A stretch of DNA of 25,392 bases from a virus. The position numbers were made by a program, and so were the translations under genes. Where the stretch lies: positions 1 through 25,392 of the IMG/VR virus record IMGVR_UViG_3300025889_000868. The stretch is one strand, 5' to 3'. Below, piece after piece: positions 3,219 through 17,480 of the stretch. The notes beneath the pieces were generated by a model. That model had not been told where the DNA came from, searched no databases, and was given only the letters and a program-made list of their open reading frames with translations. Position 1 is the stretch's first letter, and each line of letters begins with the position of its first letter.

Positions 3219-3412
3219 TTACTATTGAAGTAGATGTAAGACAAGCAGCTGCTATTCGTCAAGCATTATTTCGTGAACAAGATGGATATACTTATGATCC
3301 TAATTGTTGTCCTTCACGTATTGTAGATATCAGAAATGTTATCCAAAGTCTTGACAAACAGATTGAGAGTGAATTAAAATCTATTGAAGAAACTGAAGAA
3401 ACTAAAGAATGA
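3215..3412 (+). CDS. Small hypothetical protein
   Basis: A 65-residue protein with a good ribosome site (AAGGAG at 3205-3210) and ATGA overlaps with both neighbours. It starts MITIEVDVRQAAAIRQALFR, then has a cysteine pair (NCCPSR), a helical stretch DIRNVIQSLDKQIESEL and a glutamate-rich tail. I do not recognise a family. Its position between mazG and the CmoA-like gene suggests co-expression but says little about function. Confidence 0.65.
   Translation: MITIEVDVRQAAAIRQALFREQDGYTYDPNCCPSRIVDIRNVIQSLDKQIESELKSIEETEETKE
3351..3380 (+). promoter_or_regulatory. Possible sigma70-type promoter ahead of the CmoA-like gene
   Basis: TTGACA at 3351-3356 and TAAAAT at 3375-3380, spacer 18. The predicted start is near 3387, about 20 bases before the ATG at 3409. 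It lies within the preceding coding sequence. The -35 is perfect and the -10 has one mismatch. Confidence 0.45.
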
Positions 3413-4104
3413 CATACGACTTTTCTTTCGCTCATTCACCAGAAGGTTTTGACAATCACATTGATAGTTCTATCCGTGGGTATTCAAATCTTCTAGAAGA
3501 CACTGTATCTTTCTCCCGATACTTTGTGGAAGATGATACCAAAGTCGTTGATGTGGGTTGTTCTACTGGTAAACTCACTAAGATGATCATCAGTAACAAT
3601 CCCAATCGTAAAAGGGCTCAGTATGTGGGTGTAGAACTTGCTGGTAGTTTTTATGATGACTTGTCTGAACGTCAGACAGAGGTTCGTAAAGAATATCCCT
3701 GGGCCCTCCTAGAGTGGGTTCGTGGTAATGTCACTAACTATGAGTTCAAGAACTGTTCTCTGGTGACTTCACTATTCACTCTACAGTTCATGCCCAAGAC
3801 CACTAGACAGGAGACTATCAATAAGATCTATGATGGTCTCAATGAGGGTGGTGCATTTATCTTTGCAGAGAAGTTGATGTGTGAGAATGCATTCTTCCAG
3901 GAACTTCTTACCTTCAATCACTATGATTACAAGAGAAAGACTTTCACTGCAGAAGAGATCATGGACAAGGAGAAACAACTCCGTGACATGTTAAAACCAA
4001 ATACCTGGTCTGAACTAAAAGATATGGTTACCAAAGCTGGTTTTAAAGATTGTCAGATCTTTTGGAGAAACCATCAATTTGTTGGAGTTATTGCAATTAA
4101 GTAA
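3409..4104 (+). CDS. CmoA-like SAM enzyme (carboxy-SAM synthase family)
   Basis: The 231-residue product aligns from end to end with E. coli CmoA, which converts SAM and prephenate to carboxy-SAM for wobble-uridine modification of tRNA. Shared blocks include RGYSNLL (23-29), motif I VVDVGCSTG (46-54), LFTLQFM (122-128), the IYDGLNEGGAFIFAEKL region (140-156), LLTFNHYDYKR (166-176) and KAGF (209-212). One key difference: gapless alignment puts Glu188 at the place of E. coli Arg199, which I recall binds the carboxylate of carboxy-SAM; an Arg (192) lies one helical turn later. The enzyme may therefore have changed its substrate or bind it differently. It overlaps the AsnB-like gene (TAATG) and stands one gene from a DNA cytosine methyltransferase. 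Family membership is clear; the reaction is uncertain. Confidence 0.85.
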   Translation: MTYDFSFAHSPEGFDNHIDSSIRGYSNLLEDTVSFSRYFVEDDTKVVDVGCSTGKLTKMIISNNPNRKRAQYVGVELAGSFYDDLSERQTEVRKEYPWALLEWVRGNVTNYEFKNCSLVTSLFTLQFMPKTTRQETINKIYDGLNEGGAFIFAEKLMCENAFFQELLTFNHYDYKRKTFTAEEIMDKEKQLRDMLKPNTWSELKDMVTKAGFKDCQIFWRNHQFVGVIAIK

Positions 4105-5501
4105 TGTGTGGAATTATTGGTGGATTTGACATTCCACAAATTGAAAAAGGTCTTCATGCAATTGTTCATAGAGGACCAGACAATCAAAAAGTAATTCAGA
4201 CGGACAATGTCTATTTTGGACATGTCCGTTTGTCTATTATTGATACTAGTAGCGATTCAAATCAACCGTTTGTTTATGGTAACACTACCATGATTTTCAA
4301 TGGTACGATTTGGAACTATCGTGAGTTGAGAGAAGAATTGGATATTGAAACAAAAACTTCAGGTGATACTGAGGTTCTTTGTGCTATTTTGGATAAGTAC
4401 GGTATTGAAGGATTGAACAGAGTTCAGGGAATGTTTGCCATTGCATTCACTCAAGGTGATGGATCTATTACTATTGTGAGAGATCGTCATGGTGAAGTTC
4501 CTCTTCACTATTCTCTTATCTCAGGTCTGTTTTCATCATTCTCTTTCTGTTCAGAGATCAAAGGTCTTCTTGCCATAGGTGAGAGCGGTCAAACCATCAA
4601 GATGTTGGAACCTGGTGCATTTATTAAGGTTACATCTAATTTCACTGTGGAAGAAGGATATTGGTATAATATTAGAGAACATATCACAGATACTTCTACA
4701 TGGGGTTTTGATGACTCTAAGGCAATGATTTATAGAAATATTGTGATGGGTTCTTTTGAAAGAACTGTTGCCGATGTTCCTGTTGCTTGTCTTTTATCAG
4801 GTGGTATTGATTCTGCTATTACAACACTTGTTGCTTCTCAAAACATTCCAAATTTGGTGACATATATTGCAGTTCATAATGAGAACTCAAAGGATCTTAA
4901 GTCTGCCAGAGAAGTTGCTAAATATTTGGGAGTTGAACTGAGAGAAGTCAAAGTTCGACCTCCTACAGTTGATGATGTTAATGATGTTATCAATACTATT
5001 GAGATGCCATACAAGGCCCAGGTAGAGATTGGATACCCATGTATTCAGCTTGCAAGGAGAATCCATGAAGATGGATTCAAAGTGATTATGTCTGGTGAAG
5101 GTAGTGATGAACTCTGGGCATCCTACGGTATGAGTTACCATGGAATCAAAGATCATGGTTGGAAAGACTATAGAATTGGTTTGTTTGGTTCACAACACCG
5201 TAAAAACTTTTCGAGATGTAATAAGATCTTCATGAAGTATGGTATTGAATGTAGATTACCATTTCTCAATACTCAATTGGTAGAAACTGCACTTGGTCTT
5301 CCTCAAGATATTGTGTGGGATGGTAAGTCTAGACCTAAGGCAATTCTTCAAGAAGCATTTAGAGATCGACTTCCTGACGATATTATTGATAGGAAGAAAG
5401 TAGCATTTCAAGATGGTATGGGTATTAAGAGTCTTTATGAAAATATTGTTGACTCACCAAAAACATATTATAATGACCACTATAAGAAGAAGTTTACATG
5501 A
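4104..5501 (+). CDS. AsnB-like glutamine-hydrolysing amidotransferase
   Basis: The 465-residue protein has two domains. The N-terminal class II glutaminase begins with the nucleophile Cys2 (MCGIIGGF) and shows HRGPD, HVRLSIID, FNG (65-67) and SGD (86-88). The ATP-dependent synthetase domain has the PP-loop LLSGGIDS, MSGEGSDELWASY and IECRLPFL. Family enzymes release ammonia from glutamine, adenylate a carboxylate and form an amide; AsnB uses aspartate. Compared with E. coli AsnB (about 554 residues) it is shorter. The usual NGEIYN reads NGTIWN, replacing a Glu that I recall contacts glutamine, and RDRFGxKPLY reads RDRHGEVPLH. Sandwiched between a CmoA-like enzyme and a DNA cytosine methyltransferase with overlaps on both sides, it may amidate something other than aspartate. 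Cyanophage homologues are usually annotated asparagine synthase. Confidence 0.88.
   Translation: MCGIIGGFDIPQIEKGLHAIVHRGPDNQKVIQTDNVYFGHVRLSIIDTSSDSNQPFVYGNTTMIFNGTIWNYRELREELDIETKTSGDTEVLCAILDKYGIEGLNRVQGMFAIAFTQGDGSITIVRDRHGEVPLHYSLISGLFSSFSFCSEIKGLLAIGESGQTIKMLEPGAFIKVTSNFTVEEGYWYNIREHITDTSTWGFDDSKAMIYRNIVMGSFERTVADVPVACLLSGGIDSAITTLVASQNIPNLVTYIAVHNENSKDLKSAREVAKYLGVELREVKVRPPTVDDVNDVINTIEMPYKAQVEIGYPCIQLARRIHEDGFKVIMSGEGSDELWASYGMSYHGIKDHGWKDYRIGLFGSQHRKNFSRCNKIFMKYGIECRLPFLNTQLVETALGLPQDIVWDGKSRPKAILQEAFRDRLPDDIIDRKKVAFQDGMGIKSLYENIVDSPKTYYNDHYKKKFT
5446..5474 (+). promoter_or_regulatory. Possible promoter ahead of the DNA methyltransferase gene
   Basis: A perfect -10, TATAAT at 5469-5474, has TTGTTG 17 bases upstream (5446-5451). 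The predicted start is near 5481, just ahead of the ATG at 5498. The -35 matches only TTG of TTGACA. It lies inside the AsnB-like coding sequence, so a chance match is possible. Confidence 0.35.
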
Positions 5502-6619
5502 CCAAGTTGCCCTATAAATTACAAGATGTCTATGACGGTGAGGCTCAGGAAAAGTTCACCGTTATTTCTACATTCGCTGGTGGAGGTGGTTCCTCTACTG
5601 GGTATCGTCTTGCAGGTGGTAAAATCCTCTGTATTAATGAGTTTGTAGAGGAAGCAAGAAGGACATACTCACAAAACTATCCAACAACCACTATTCTTCC
5701 TGGTGACATCAAAGAGTTGACAGGTAAAGATTTCTTGGAAGCCACTGGTTTGAAACCAGGAGAACTTGATATTCTTGATGGTTCACCACCATGTTCTGCA
5801 TTTTCTGTTGCAGGATCTATGTGTCGTGGTGAAGGATCTAAACATTCTGATGGGTGGGGAAAGACCAAGAACTATTCTGATGGTAAGAAAGTAGAGAATA
5901 TTGAAGATCTCTTCTTTGAGTATATTCGTGTTGCTAATGATATTCGTCCAAAGGTTATTGTTGCGGAGAACGTCAAGGGTTTGACCATTGGTGAGGCTAA
6001 GACTTATTATGCAAAGATTACTAATGCATTTGAAGAAATTGGATATCTTGTCACTTCAAAAGTGATGAAAGCATCTCATTATGGTGTGGGTCAAGCAAGA
6101 GAAAGACTTATCTTTATTGCAGTTCGTGATGACATTGCAGATCAGATTGGTTTGAATGTCTTGACTGTATCTTCTCTGTTCCCTCCTACATCATCTAAAG
6201 ATACTACTATCGGTGATATTATTGATGGTGTAGAGAATGATCCTGATAATGTCAAGGGTCTTACGGAACACATGTTGAAGAGTGGTATCTATCAGAGTGT
6301 TGTGAAGAAAATGCCTAAGGATCCTAAAAAGATTCTTTCAGGTATGGATTATCATGAGAAGGGTCATTGTTTCAATACTAAGAGAGCATCATTCTACAAA
6401 CCATCTCCTACACTGACTGCAAGTGGTGGTTTGATTCACTGGAATGAAGACAGAGTATTATCTGTTCCAGAACTTAAACGTATCCAATCACTTCCTGATG
6501 ATTTCATTCTGACTGGTTCTCATTCACAACAAACAGAGAGAGTTGGTCGTATGGTTCCTCCTCTGATGATGAAAGCCATTGCGGAGAATATTTATAAAGA
6601 GGTTCTATCTAAACTCTAA
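5498..6619 (+). CDS. DNA cytosine-C5 (carboxy)methyltransferase candidate
   Basis: The 373-residue protein has the ordered motifs of DNA C5-cytosine methyltransferases: motif I STFAGGGGSSTGY (24-36), motif IV with catalytic Cys99 in GSPPCSAFSVAG, motif VI AENVKG (156-161), motif VIII QARERLIFIAVR (199-210), motif IX region RASFYKPSPTLTASGG and motif X VGRMVPP (349-355). The enzyme flips a cytosine, attacks C6 through Cys99 and transfers a one-carbon group from SAM to C5. Motif X normally reads GNxVPP; here Asn is Arg351 (codon CGT at 6548-6550). Because motif X lines the SAM pocket, this may fit an unusual donor such as carboxy-SAM. The target domain between motifs VIII and IX is short. The ATG overlaps the AsnB-like stop (ATGA). 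There is no restriction partner in the window. Confidence 0.88.
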   Translation: MTKLPYKLQDVYDGEAQEKFTVISTFAGGGGSSTGYRLAGGKILCINEFVEEARRTYSQNYPTTTILPGDIKELTGKDFLEATGLKPGELDILDGSPPCSAFSVAGSMCRGEGSKHSDGWGKTKNYSDGKKVENIEDLFFEYIRVANDIRPKVIVAENVKGLTIGEAKTYYAKITNAFEEIGYLVTSKVMKASHYGVGQARERLIFIAVRDDIADQIGLNVLTVSSLFPPTSSKDTTIGDIIDGVENDPDNVKGLTEHMLKSGIYQSVVKKMPKDPKKILSGMDYHEKGHCFNTKRASFYKPSPTLTASGGLIHWNEDRVLSVPELKRIQSLPDDFILTGSHSQQTERVGRMVPPLMMKAIAENIYKEVLSKL

Positions 6620-14193: not shown

Positions 14194-15183
14194 ATGGATT
14201 TTATTGATGTCAAGTATATTCAACTCATTTCATCAAGACTCCAAAAGTTTAAAAAAGTAAAACCACATTTGTACAACTGTCGTTGTCCTATTTGTGGTGA
14301 CTCACAGAAGAACAAGTCCAAAGCAAGGGGATACTTTTATCGTGTCAAGAATAATACTAATTACAAGTGTCATAACTGTGGGTTGAATATTTCATTTAAT
14401 AACTTTCTGAAACAATTTGATGAACCTACACATAAACAGTATGTGTTTGAGAAGTTCAAAGAAGGTAAGACTGGAAAGGGTTTTGTAACCGAATCACCAG
14501 AGGACCTTTTTAAGAAAGTAGATACATCTAAACCAACCTTTAAGAAGAAGGTAAAGATTGATCTTCCCAGTGCCTTTGATGTTGATGTGTCTAGACGATA
14601 TCTAAATTCCAGAGCAATCTTCGAAGGTAATTTTTATTATTCTGAGAACTTCCAGGAATTTGTAAATACACTCAAACCAGGTTCGTTTGAAAACACCAGG
14701 TATGGTGAACAGAGGATTGTAATTCCTCTTATCAGGGATGACAGACTTATTGGTCTCCAAGGAAGAGCCCTATCTACAAACCCTGTTAAATACTTAACCA
14801 TTATGTTGGATGAGGATGAACTTAAAGTCTACGGACTAGATTCTATTGATAAGGAGAAACCAGTTTATGTCACAGAAGGACCCTTTGACTCCACTTTCCT
14901 TAGAAATGCTATTGCTATGTGTGGTAGTGATGTTGACCTCAGCACTTTGGATTATCAGTTCATTTACGTCTACGACAACGAACCAAGAAACAAACAGATC
15001 GTTGATCGAATCTCAAATCAAATCGACAGTGGTAACTCCATAGTCATCTGGCCCTCCAACATCAGGGACAAGGATATCAATGACATGATCCTCAGTGGTC
15101 ATAATGTGAAGAATGTGGTAGAATCGAACACCTACCAAGGATTAGAAGCAAAACTTAAGTTTACAGTCTGGAAGAAAGTATGA
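14194..15183 (+). CDS. 61: gp61 DNA primase
   Basis: Makes RNA primers for lagging-strand synthesis together with the gp41 helicase. The 329-residue protein has an N-terminal zinc ribbon (Cys31xxCys34 and Cys59xxCys62, CPICGDS and CHNCGLN), with an additional Cys29, and a C-terminal TOPRIM core: QRIVIPLIRDDRLIGLQGRA, the VYVTEGPFDSTF strand with Glu228, and YVYDNEPRN with Asp261 as metal ligands. Length is close to T4 gp61 (342). It overlaps nrdA as ATGA and starts three bases after the previous stop. In T4 the gp41 and gp61 genes are adjacent, while here about 11.6 kb lies between them. Confidence 0.93.
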   Translation: MDFIDVKYIQLISSRLQKFKKVKPHLYNCRCPICGDSQKNKSKARGYFYRVKNNTNYKCHNCGLNISFNNFLKQFDEPTHKQYVFEKFKEGKTGKGFVTESPEDLFKKVDTSKPTFKKKVKIDLPSAFDVDVSRRYLNSRAIFEGNFYYSENFQEFVNTLKPGSFENTRYGEQRIVIPLIRDDRLIGLQGRALSTNPVKYLTIMLDEDELKVYGLDSIDKEKPVYVTEGPFDSTFLRNAIAMCGSDVDLSTLDYQFIYVYDNEPRNKQIVDRISNQIDSGNSIVIWPSNIRDKDINDMILSGHNVKNVVESNTYQGLEAKLKFTVWKKV

Positions 15184-17480
15184 GTAACGGTATCAAAGTT
15201 AAGAAAAGAAGTGGTGAAGTAGAGAAACTAGATCTTGATAAGATGCATCTTATGGTCGATGAGGCATGTAAAGATCTTGCTGGAGTGTCAGCCTCTCAGG
15301 TCGAGATGACCTCTGGTATTCAGTTTTATGATGGTATTACTACAGATGAGATTCAGGATATCCTGATTCGTAGTGCCAGTGATCTGATTGATTTGGACCA
15401 TCCAAACTATCAGTTTGTTGCTGCACGTCTCCTTCTGTTCACTCTTCGTAAACAAGTCTTCAAGAACAAGAAGGGTACTGCACCTAATCTGAAAGAACAC
15501 ATTGAGAAGTGTGCATACAATGGTCACTATGATAAACAGATTTTTGAGAAATATTCTCTGGAGGAGATTGAAAAGGTAAATAGTTTTATCTATCATGATC
15601 GTGATATGTTGTTCACCTATGCTGGTCTTCGCCAGGTGGTGGATAAGTATCTTGTTCAGGATCGTAGTACTGGGGATGTGTTTGAGACTCCTCAGTTCAT
15701 GTATATCATGATTGCTCTTACGATCTTCCAAGACTACCCAAAGGAGACCCGTCTTGACTATGTCAAAAGATACTACAATGCCATCTCCAAACACAGACTC
15801 AACATTCCCACACCTATCATGGCGGGAGTGCGAACTCCACTTCGACAATTTGCTAGCTGTGTTCTTGTTGATGTTGATGACTCCCTCGATTCTATCTTTA
15901 GCTCTGATATGGCTATTGGCAGATACGTTGCACAAAGGGCGGGAATCGGTATCAATGCAGGCAGAATCCGTGGTATCAACGCTAAAATCAGAGGCGGAGA
16001 GGTTCAACACACAGGTGTGGTCCCCTTCCTCAAAAAGTTTGAGTCAACTGTCAGATGCTGTACACAAAACGGGATCCGAGGTGGGTCAGCTACTGTCCAC
16101 TTTCCTATCTGGCACCAAGAAATCGAAGACATCATTGTTCTGAAGAACAACAAAGGTACTGAAGATAATAGGGTAAGGAAACTTGATTACTCAATCCAGA
16201 TTTCAAAAATTTTCTACGAACGTTTCATTCAGGATGGAGAGATTAGCCTCTTCTCACCGCATGATACGCCAGGTCTTTATGATGCTTTTGGTACTGATCG
16301 TTTTGATGAATTATATGTGGGTTACGAACGAGATCAGTCTATTCCTAGAAAAACGGTTGGGGCTCAAGATCTTATTCTAGATATTCTGAAAGAGAGGGCA
16401 GAGACTGGTCGTCTGTATATCATGAATATCGACCACTGCAACTCTCACTCTTCTTTCAAAGATAAGGTAGAGATGAGTAATCTTTGCCAGGAAATTACTC
16501 TGCCAACATATCCTATTAATCATATTGATGATGAGTACGGTGAGATTGCACTTTGTATTCTTTCTGCAATCAATGTAGGAAAGGTTAGGTCTGACGATGA
16601 ACTGGAAGACCTTTGTGATCTTGCAGTACGTGGACTGGAAGAACTGATTGATTATCAAGAGTATCCTGTAAGGGCCGCAGACATTGCTACAAAGGCCCGT
16701 AGATCCCTTGGAGTAGGGTTTATTGGTCTTGCACACTATCTGGCTAAGTTGGGTTATAACTATGATAGTCAGGAGGCATGGGATGCAGTACACGGTCTTA
16801 CAGAATCTTTTCAATACTACCTTCTAAAGTCTTCAAATGAACTTGCCAAAGAGAAAGGACATTGTGAATATTTTGGTAGGACAAAGTACGCGGATGGTAT
16901 TTTACCTATCGACACTTATAAGAAAGATGTCGATAAGATTTCGTCACAAACCTTACAACATGATTGGGAGTCTCTACGATCTTCTATATCCACCCATGGA
17001 CTACGGCACTCAACATTGTCCGCTCAGATGCCTTCAGAGAGCAGTTCCGTTGTGTCAAACGCAACAAATGGAATCGAACCACCTAGAGACTATCTGTCCA
17101 TTAAGAAGAGCAAAAAGGGACCGCTCAAACAGATTGTCCCTCAGTATGGATCTCTTAAAAATAATTATACACTTCTGTGGAATATGTCTTCTAATCGTGG
17201 TTATATTAATGTTGTGGCTGTGATGCAGAAGTTCTTTGACCAAGCGATCAGTGGTAACTGGTCTTACAACCCTGAGAACTACCCTGACAATGAGGTTCCA
17301 GTCTCTGTAATGGCACAAGACTTCTTGACAACATACAAGTTGGGATGGAAGACTAGTTACTATCAGAATACATATGATATCAAGACGGATGAAGCTCCAG
17401 AGGAAAACTCTGAACTTTCAAATCTCCTAAATGATATTATGGAGTCTGAAGAGGACGATTGTGAAAGCTGTAAAATCTAG
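15180..17480 (+). CDS. nrdA: Ribonucleotide reductase class Ia, large subunit
   Basis: Reduces ribonucleoside diphosphates to deoxy forms for phage DNA synthesis. The 766-residue protein is co-linear with E. coli NrdA. The N-terminus (about 3-95) is an ATP-cone-like domain. The active site has ASCVLVDVDDSLDSIF, SNLCQEITLP with the thiyl-radical Cys, and ALCILSAINVG. The conserved NATNGIEPPR and the radical-transfer tyrosines TSYYQNTYD are also present. The C-terminal redox pair is CESC in a DCESCKI tail, two residues shorter between cysteines than CESGAC in E. coli. No intron or frameshift is visible. Marine picocyanobacteria mostly use a B12-dependent class II enzyme, so this phage brings its own class. 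nrdB follows after 13 bases. Confidence 0.97.
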   Translation: MSNGIKVKKRSGEVEKLDLDKMHLMVDEACKDLAGVSASQVEMTSGIQFYDGITTDEIQDILIRSASDLIDLDHPNYQFVAARLLLFTLRKQVFKNKKGTAPNLKEHIEKCAYNGHYDKQIFEKYSLEEIEKVNSFIYHDRDMLFTYAGLRQVVDKYLVQDRSTGDVFETPQFMYIMIALTIFQDYPKETRLDYVKRYYNAISKHRLNIPTPIMAGVRTPLRQFASCVLVDVDDSLDSIFSSDMAIGRYVAQRAGIGINAGRIRGINAKIRGGEVQHTGVVPFLKKFESTVRCCTQNGIRGGSATVHFPIWHQEIEDIIVLKNNKGTEDNRVRKLDYSIQISKIFYERFIQDGEISLFSPHDTPGLYDAFGTDRFDELYVGYERDQSIPRKTVGAQDLILDILKERAETGRLYIMNIDHCNSHSSFKDKVEMSNLCQEITLPTYPINHIDDEYGEIALCILSAINVGKVRSDDELEDLCDLAVRGLEELIDYQEYPVRAADIATKARRSLGVGFIGLAHYLAKLGYNYDSQEAWDAVHGLTESFQYYLLKSSNELAKEKGHCEYFGRTKYADGILPIDTYKKDVDKISSQTLQHDWESLRSSISTHGLRHSTLSAQMPSESSSVVSNATNGIEPPRDYLSIKKSKKGPLKQIVPQYGSLKNNYTLLWNMSSNRGYINVVAVMQKFFDQAISGNWSYNPENYPDNEVPVSVMAQDFLTTYKLGWKTSYYQNTYDIKTDEAPEENSELSNLLNDIMESEEDDCESCKI

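Follow-up and report, generated by a model that had tools for sequence, protein, structure and literature searches.

A probable cytosine carbamoylmethylation cassette in a T4-like cyanophage, with a ligase gene exchanged repeatedly among close relatives

The closest described system is the CmoA-CmoX-CmoY pathway of Synechococcus phage S-B43, reported by Yang et al. in Nat Commun in December 2025 (PDB 8YF3; PMC12783734). SpCmoA produces carboxy-SAM (Cx-SAM), with a kcat ten times that of E. coli CmoA, SpCmoX moves the carboxymethyl group onto cytosine in GC motifs, and CmoY ligates glycine (PMC12783734). In the crystal structure SpCmoX Arg-350, at the position of M.HhaI Asn-304, touches the carboxymethyl group and its carboxylate; the wild-type enzyme uses Cx-SAM only, and R350N is inactive with either cofactor (PMC12783734). 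The same paper cites M.MpeI N374K as an engineered parallel to the SpCmoX arginine, and proposes ammonia as the amine for a cluster of GATase-type ligases that includes A0A7T0Q3R0, from which no soluble enzyme was obtained (PMC12783734). ParBc genes are also reported near cmoX (PMC12783734); among the phage records examined here, ParB-like annotation near cmoX was seen only in Streptomyces phage TurkishDelight and in PaBG.

The window analyzed here is a stretch of 25,392 nucleotides of virus DNA (IMG/VR record IMGVR_UViG_3300025889_000868, positions 1 to 25,392). It contains three rightwards-transcribed genes, cmoA, a ligase gene and cmoX, arranged as a single unit with overlaps of 1 and 4 bp. 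The features referred to below are:

3409–4104, + strand: cmoA, carboxy-SAM synthase homologue, 231 aa (TIGR00740; PDB 4gek; identity to S-B43 CmoA)
4104–5501, + strand: 465-aa AsnB-like amide ligase whose N-terminal domain is a class II glutaminase (PF13522/PF13537 and PF00733; AlphaFold2; 1ct9)
4107–4109, + strand: codon of ligase Cys2, the residue expected to be the glutaminase nucleophile (present in 60 of 60 full-length relatives)
4797–4814, + strand: SGGIDS pyrophosphate loop of the ligase synthetase domain (S232, G233, G234, D236 and S237 in 60 of 60)
5498–6619, + strand: cmoX, DNA cytosine C5-carboxymethyltransferase homologue, 373 aa (PF00145; PDB 8yf3; identity to S-B43 CmoX)
5783–5794, + strand: SPPC (residues 96–99) with the catalytic Cys99, equivalent to SpCmoX Cys-98
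6542–6562, + strand: motif X, VGRMVPP (residues 349–355); Arg351 is equivalent to SpCmoX Arg-350 and M.HhaI Asn-304
15180–17480: nrdA, used for the GC count

We consider it probable that these genes, from a T4-like cyanophage, form a cassette for DNA hypermodification, in which CmoA, an arginine-dependent CmoX and a glutamine-dependent ligase together make 5-carbamoylmethylcytosine. CmoA would convert SAM to carboxy-SAM; CmoX would then flip the target cytosine out, Cys99 would attack C6, and the carboxymethyl group would pass to C5. The motif X arginine would hold the carboxylate, so that SAM would be excluded as a cofactor, and the ligase would activate the carboxylate with ATP and then amidate it. 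The modification may serve to shield the DNA from restriction. The chemistry of CmoA and CmoX and the role of the arginine were established in orthologues about 88% identical to the window proteins, for which we infer the same, along with a GC target and the amine and product of the ligase.

The middle gene is the part of the cassette that departs from S-B43. An assignment of its product as a glycine ligase of the SpCmoY type (about 270 aa, no glutaminase domain) fails, since it is 465 aa long and has a GATase domain. With the window ligase as query, S-B43 contains no matching place at an E-value of 1e-10, and GATase ligase and CmoY share about 22% identity over the synthetase part. Of the named phages in the collection, Streptomyces phage TurkishDelight carries the nearest relative, at 41.6% identity. 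The AlphaFold2 model (built from 21 sequences; pLDDT 89.1, pTM 0.88) has E. coli AsnB (1ct9) as its best fold match in the PDB, with a TM score of 0.84, ranking above beta-lactam synthetase; the match to the AsnB family TIGR01536 is 261.9 bits, just under the cut-off of 267.1. Cys2, Arg42, Asn66, Gly67, Asp88 and the SGGxDS loop are kept in all 60 full-length relatives (the window included), down to about 40% identity. The roles of the glutaminase residues, Cys2 as nucleophile among them, we take to be those of class II amidotransferases. Because the glutaminase domain is apparently intact, we think that the amine is ammonia released from glutamine, and predict 5-carbamoylmethylcytosine as the end product where S-B43 has the glycine amide. 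A search of the PMC literature found no report of 5-carbamoylmethylcytosine in DNA; if the GATase ligase makes it, it would be a further DNA base and would offer a further tool for DNA labelling.

It is also conceivable that CmoA and CmoX act as proposed and the ligase adds glycine, another amino acid, a polyamine or nothing, with the glutaminase domain a relic as in beta-lactam synthetase. The S-B43 ligase uses glycine (PMC12783734), beta-lactam and carbapenam synthetases have the same two-domain fold and match the ligase structurally, and the residue after the oxyanion pair Asn66-Gly67 is Thr in 46 of the 60 relatives, where AsnB has Glu. Set against these points, the invariance of the five glutaminase residues across all 60 relatives, at identities as low as about 40%, argues against a relic, and the GATase cluster was also read as ammonia-using (PMC12783734). 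We judge the use of another amine unlikely, and amidation by glutamine-derived ammonia is the reading carried forward.

The gene between cmoA and cmoX varies. Where CmoX is at least 75% identical to that of the window, this slot holds, among the matches listed, a GATase ligase in 42 rows (the window counting twice), CmoY in 19, and no gene in 5; five second cmoX copies and four rows cut by contig ends were kept off the tree. On the CmoX tree (66 rows, 65 of them different; a quick tree with SH-aLRT support only) the three slot states need 13 changes, and the well-supported branches force at least nine for the GATase type. The clearest case is a pair of contigs, L033 with a GATase ligase and L134 with CmoY, which are 99.0% identical over 3556 bases to the left and 2726 bases to the right, the DNA exactly between these flanks being unrelated; their cmoX genes differ by 0.09%, and the CmoY form was recovered from two metagenomes, once as L134 and once as L135. 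Isolates behave similarly, the slot being CmoY in S-B43 and a 25-bp gap in RN05-S, with flanks 96.6% and 92.0% identical; searches of the whole RN05-S record turned up neither ligase type at another place. Chimeric assembly could mimic one such pair, and could hardly produce the repeated pattern.

The ligase slot is thus exchanged repeatedly among close cyanophages, between GATase ligase, CmoY and no gene, a finding that is new here; the main text of PMC12783734 does not use the words swap, exchange, tandem or horizontal with this meaning. It provides natural phage pairs whose main difference is the last step, with which the value of each DNA coat becomes testable. An idea that we regard as evenly poised is that the phage DNA carries 5-carbamoylmethylcytosine and that close relatives, with genomes otherwise nearly unchanged, switch their coat (free acid, glycine amide or primary amide) through exchange of the ligase-slot gene alone, giving a switchable cloak against modification-sensing host defences.

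The slot also bears on whether the AsnB-like gene is simply metabolic, supplying asparagine and unrelated to DNA modification, as its fold and sequence, those of asparagine synthetase B, might suggest. Against this, the gene lies between cmoA and cmoX with the 1- and 4-bp overlaps, a relative of CmoY, the proven DNA ligase, takes exactly this place in phages that otherwise match, and distant relatives of the window ligase adjoin cmoX and cmoA in other gene orders. We therefore find asparagine supply very improbable, and favor a role of the ligase in the last step of DNA modification.

Several other arrangements were seen at these loci. Some CmoY rows have an additional gene between cmoA and cmoY; in some cyanophages, proteins of two types, about 314 and about 445 aa long, are encoded in this gap (L107 1162–2106, L093 4242–5189, L099 2589–3920 and L114 3849–5195). 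A Pfam scan of the two types found no clear family, with one sub-cut-off LRAT match in one and nothing in the other. Tandem copies of cmoX, each with the motif X arginine and differing in the catalytic loop and the target recognition region, are present in L118 (1081–2208 and 2205–3323), the L053/L058 group, L057, L066, L141 and L202; the two genes possibly have two target sequences. Phage S-SCSM1, which is without a CmoX match, has a 2OG-Fe(II) oxygenase gene after mazG (L339 24171–25748) in place of the cassette.

CmoA of the window is an S-B43-type phage CmoA, not one of the E. coli type. It shares 87.9% identity with S-B43 CmoA, which is active; its best NCBIfam family is TIGR00740 at 114.3 bits, under the curated cut-off of 193.3, and it matches E. 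coli CmoA (PDB 4gek) with an E-value of 5e-27. In the E. coli enzyme Arg199 forms a salt bridge with the Cx-SAM carboxylate (PMC3663124). This arginine is not conserved in the alignment with window CmoA, which has Glu188 in its place and Arg192 four residues on (window 3970–3984); E. coli residue numbers were obtained by counting along the alignment. Because S-B43 CmoA is active with the same Glu/Arg pair, the carboxylate clamp of the phage enzymes seems, as far as an alignment can tell, to have shifted one helical turn onward, to the place of Arg192. The absence of Arg199 from these phage CmoAs, with an arginine one turn later, is also new here. Among 127 CmoA rows (122 unique locus ORFs and five reference proteins, with some phages counted twice), the residues at the Arg199 place and four further on are Glu/Arg in 106, Arg/Glu in six (the reciprocal arrangement, as in PaBG), Ala/Arg in six, Gln/Arg in three, Ser/Arg in two, Glu/Gln in two, and Glu/Lys and a gap in one each.

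The cmoX product is a C5 cytosine methyltransferase family protein (PF00145, E-value 7e-53; TIGR00675 also matches), and a PDB sequence search returned SpCmoX (8yf3) with an E-value of 5e-227, aligned ungapped over residues 3–373. The two enzymes are 88.7% identical, and all six cofactor and catalytic residues named for SpCmoX (F25, E47, F48, D69, C98 and R350) are identical in the window protein; 15 of the 41 differences fall in residues 233–274. The initial annotation of this DNA had placed the motif VGRMVPP at residues 349–355, which is right, and at nucleotides 6539–6559, which is one codon too far left. Its observation that an arginine (Arg351, codon CGT at 6548–6550) stands in the place of the motif X asparagine is borne out by phmmer alignments, in which the window ervGRmvpp pairs with kmiGNavpv of M.HaeIII and rqvGNavpp of DNMT1. 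Arg351 is invariant in nine of nine diverse aligned relatives and in 13 of 13 sequences of a second alignment, both of them sets of R-type relatives. The arginine is neither a sequencing error nor drift or chance, since it is invariant among relatives and separates loci with CmoA from those without.

It had further been proposed that this is a natural carboxymethyltransferase with Arg351 contacting the carboxylate. That proposal is backed by the Cx-SAM crystal contact, the Cx-SAM-only activity and the inactive R350N mutant of SpCmoX, and for the window protein itself a DNA cytosine C5-carboxymethyltransferase reading is supported by inference from this orthologue. The strongest evidence within the window, the genes for a CmoA homologue and a ligase immediately 5' of cmoX, did not figure in that proposal. 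The same idea was published for a nearly identical enzyme in December 2025. The suggested equivalence of M.MpeI N374 to the motif X asparagine (M.HhaI N304) also agrees with the published pairing of mutants, N304A (Q82A/Y254S/N304A) and N374A (Q136A/N374A) (PMC6009647).

The relationship between the motif X residue and CmoA was examined in C5-methyltransferase ORFs gathered from IMG/VR, GTDB genomes and ten phage records, with the motif X residue taken from a profile alignment and CmoA sought in the same locus; seven of the 233 unique ORFs end before motif X and are omitted from the residue counts. In the bacterial genomes, among the matches listed, CmoA accompanies 38 of 41 Arg-type genes and one of 37 with Asn, Met or Leu at a loose cut-off (55 bits), and 15 of 41 and none of 37 at a strict one (100 bits). 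Most of these CmoA matches are weak; when five weak matches were checked against NCBIfam, CmoA was the best family for L269, L234, L279 and the phage locus L008, and was not for L291. This last locus, of the Met type and the one case among the 37, does not break the rule, as its supposed CmoA lies 8.4 kb off and has BioC as its best match. Since the sequences within groups are related, a fairer figure comes from clusters at 60% identity, where, among the matches listed, 13 of 16 Arg clusters and two of 20 others have CmoA (Fisher p 2e-5). One of the two non-Arg clusters is mixed and its Arg member carries the CmoA, the other is L291, and three Arg clusters without CmoA remain. Among the viral loci listed, which are the best 80 per search and weighted to close relatives, 118 of 144 with Arg and none of four with Asn, Met or Leu have CmoA; 25 of the 26 Arg loci lacking it are within about 2.3 kb of the locus end, and the other (L231) is 4.1 kb from it.

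In these sequences the motif X arginine tracks CmoA, an association that is new here. Comparison of phages and prophages confirms this residue as a good marker of carboxymethylation, so that sequence can be used to sort C5-methyltransferases according to their likely chemistry. That the window enzyme is an ordinary 5-methylcytosine methyltransferase with a neutral Arg replacement is hardly credible: relatives with motif X Met or Leu and without CmoA do exist, one of them (Leu, L007) adjoining a Tet/JBP-type oxygenase, and other residues are tolerated in likely methyltransferases, but SpCmoX, at 88.7% identity, has no activity with SAM (PMC12783734) and CmoA co-occurs with Arg and not with Met, Leu or Asn.

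We do not regard the bacterial-genome matches as a general cellular system, as both loci checked (L269 and L237) adjoin terminase genes and are prophages; the word prophage is absent from the main text of PMC12783734. Verrucomicrobia genomes (many of L263–L308) contain several cmoX-cmoA pairs per assembly with weak CmoA scores, and L269, noted above, is next to a terminase. A branch of the same C5-methyltransferase group with motif X Met (GMSVPP) and without CmoA includes L009, L011 and 24 genome loci (e.g. L261, L297 and L312). In Methylophilales phage Melnitz-3 (L007 3866–6050) the motif X Leu enzyme is followed by the Tet/JBP oxygenase (PF12851), an arrangement that resembles a 5mC oxidation pair.

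The genomes may also carry a footprint of the target sequence. In nrdA, GC across codon boundaries is 0.34–0.51 of expectation in four CmoX phages, which are partly close kin, and 0.54–0.98 in eight without CmoX (Mann-Whitney p 0.004), whereas CG does not differ (p 0.46). The exception is ACG-2014f, which has no CmoX match and is equally GC-depleted. GC depletion in the CmoX phages fits a GC target and is suggestive only. In the window as a whole, GC dinucleotides are at 0.60 of expectation, a depletion exceeding that of most cyanophages without CmoX.

Compared with the known systems, the window is most like S-B43, with CmoX 88.7% and CmoA 87.9% identical, and the same gene order, arginine and pocket residues; it differs in the middle gene, which encodes the 271-aa glycine ligase CmoY in S-B43 and a 465-aa ligase with a glutaminase domain in the window. 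The ligase cluster of A0A7T0Q3R0 resembles the window ligase by description, having glutamine-hydrolysing and asparagine-synthetase domains beside CmoX (PMC12783734). Genes 123–125 of Streptomyces phage TurkishDelight likewise code for a CmoX-like protein with the arginine, a GATase ligase (the 41.6% relative noted above) and a CmoA homologue, although the order is X-ligase-A, CmoX is 40% identical, and two ParB-like genes lie upstream. E. coli AsnB (1CT9) has the two-domain fold and the glutaminase and PPi-loop motifs of the window ligase at 27% identity, and acts on aspartate where the window enzyme is expected to act on a DNA carboxymethyl group. M.MpeI N374K has a basic residue at the motif X Asn and the same chemistry (PMC12783734), but is engineered, uses Lys and targets CG, whereas the phage enzymes are natural, use Arg and, in S-B43, target GC.
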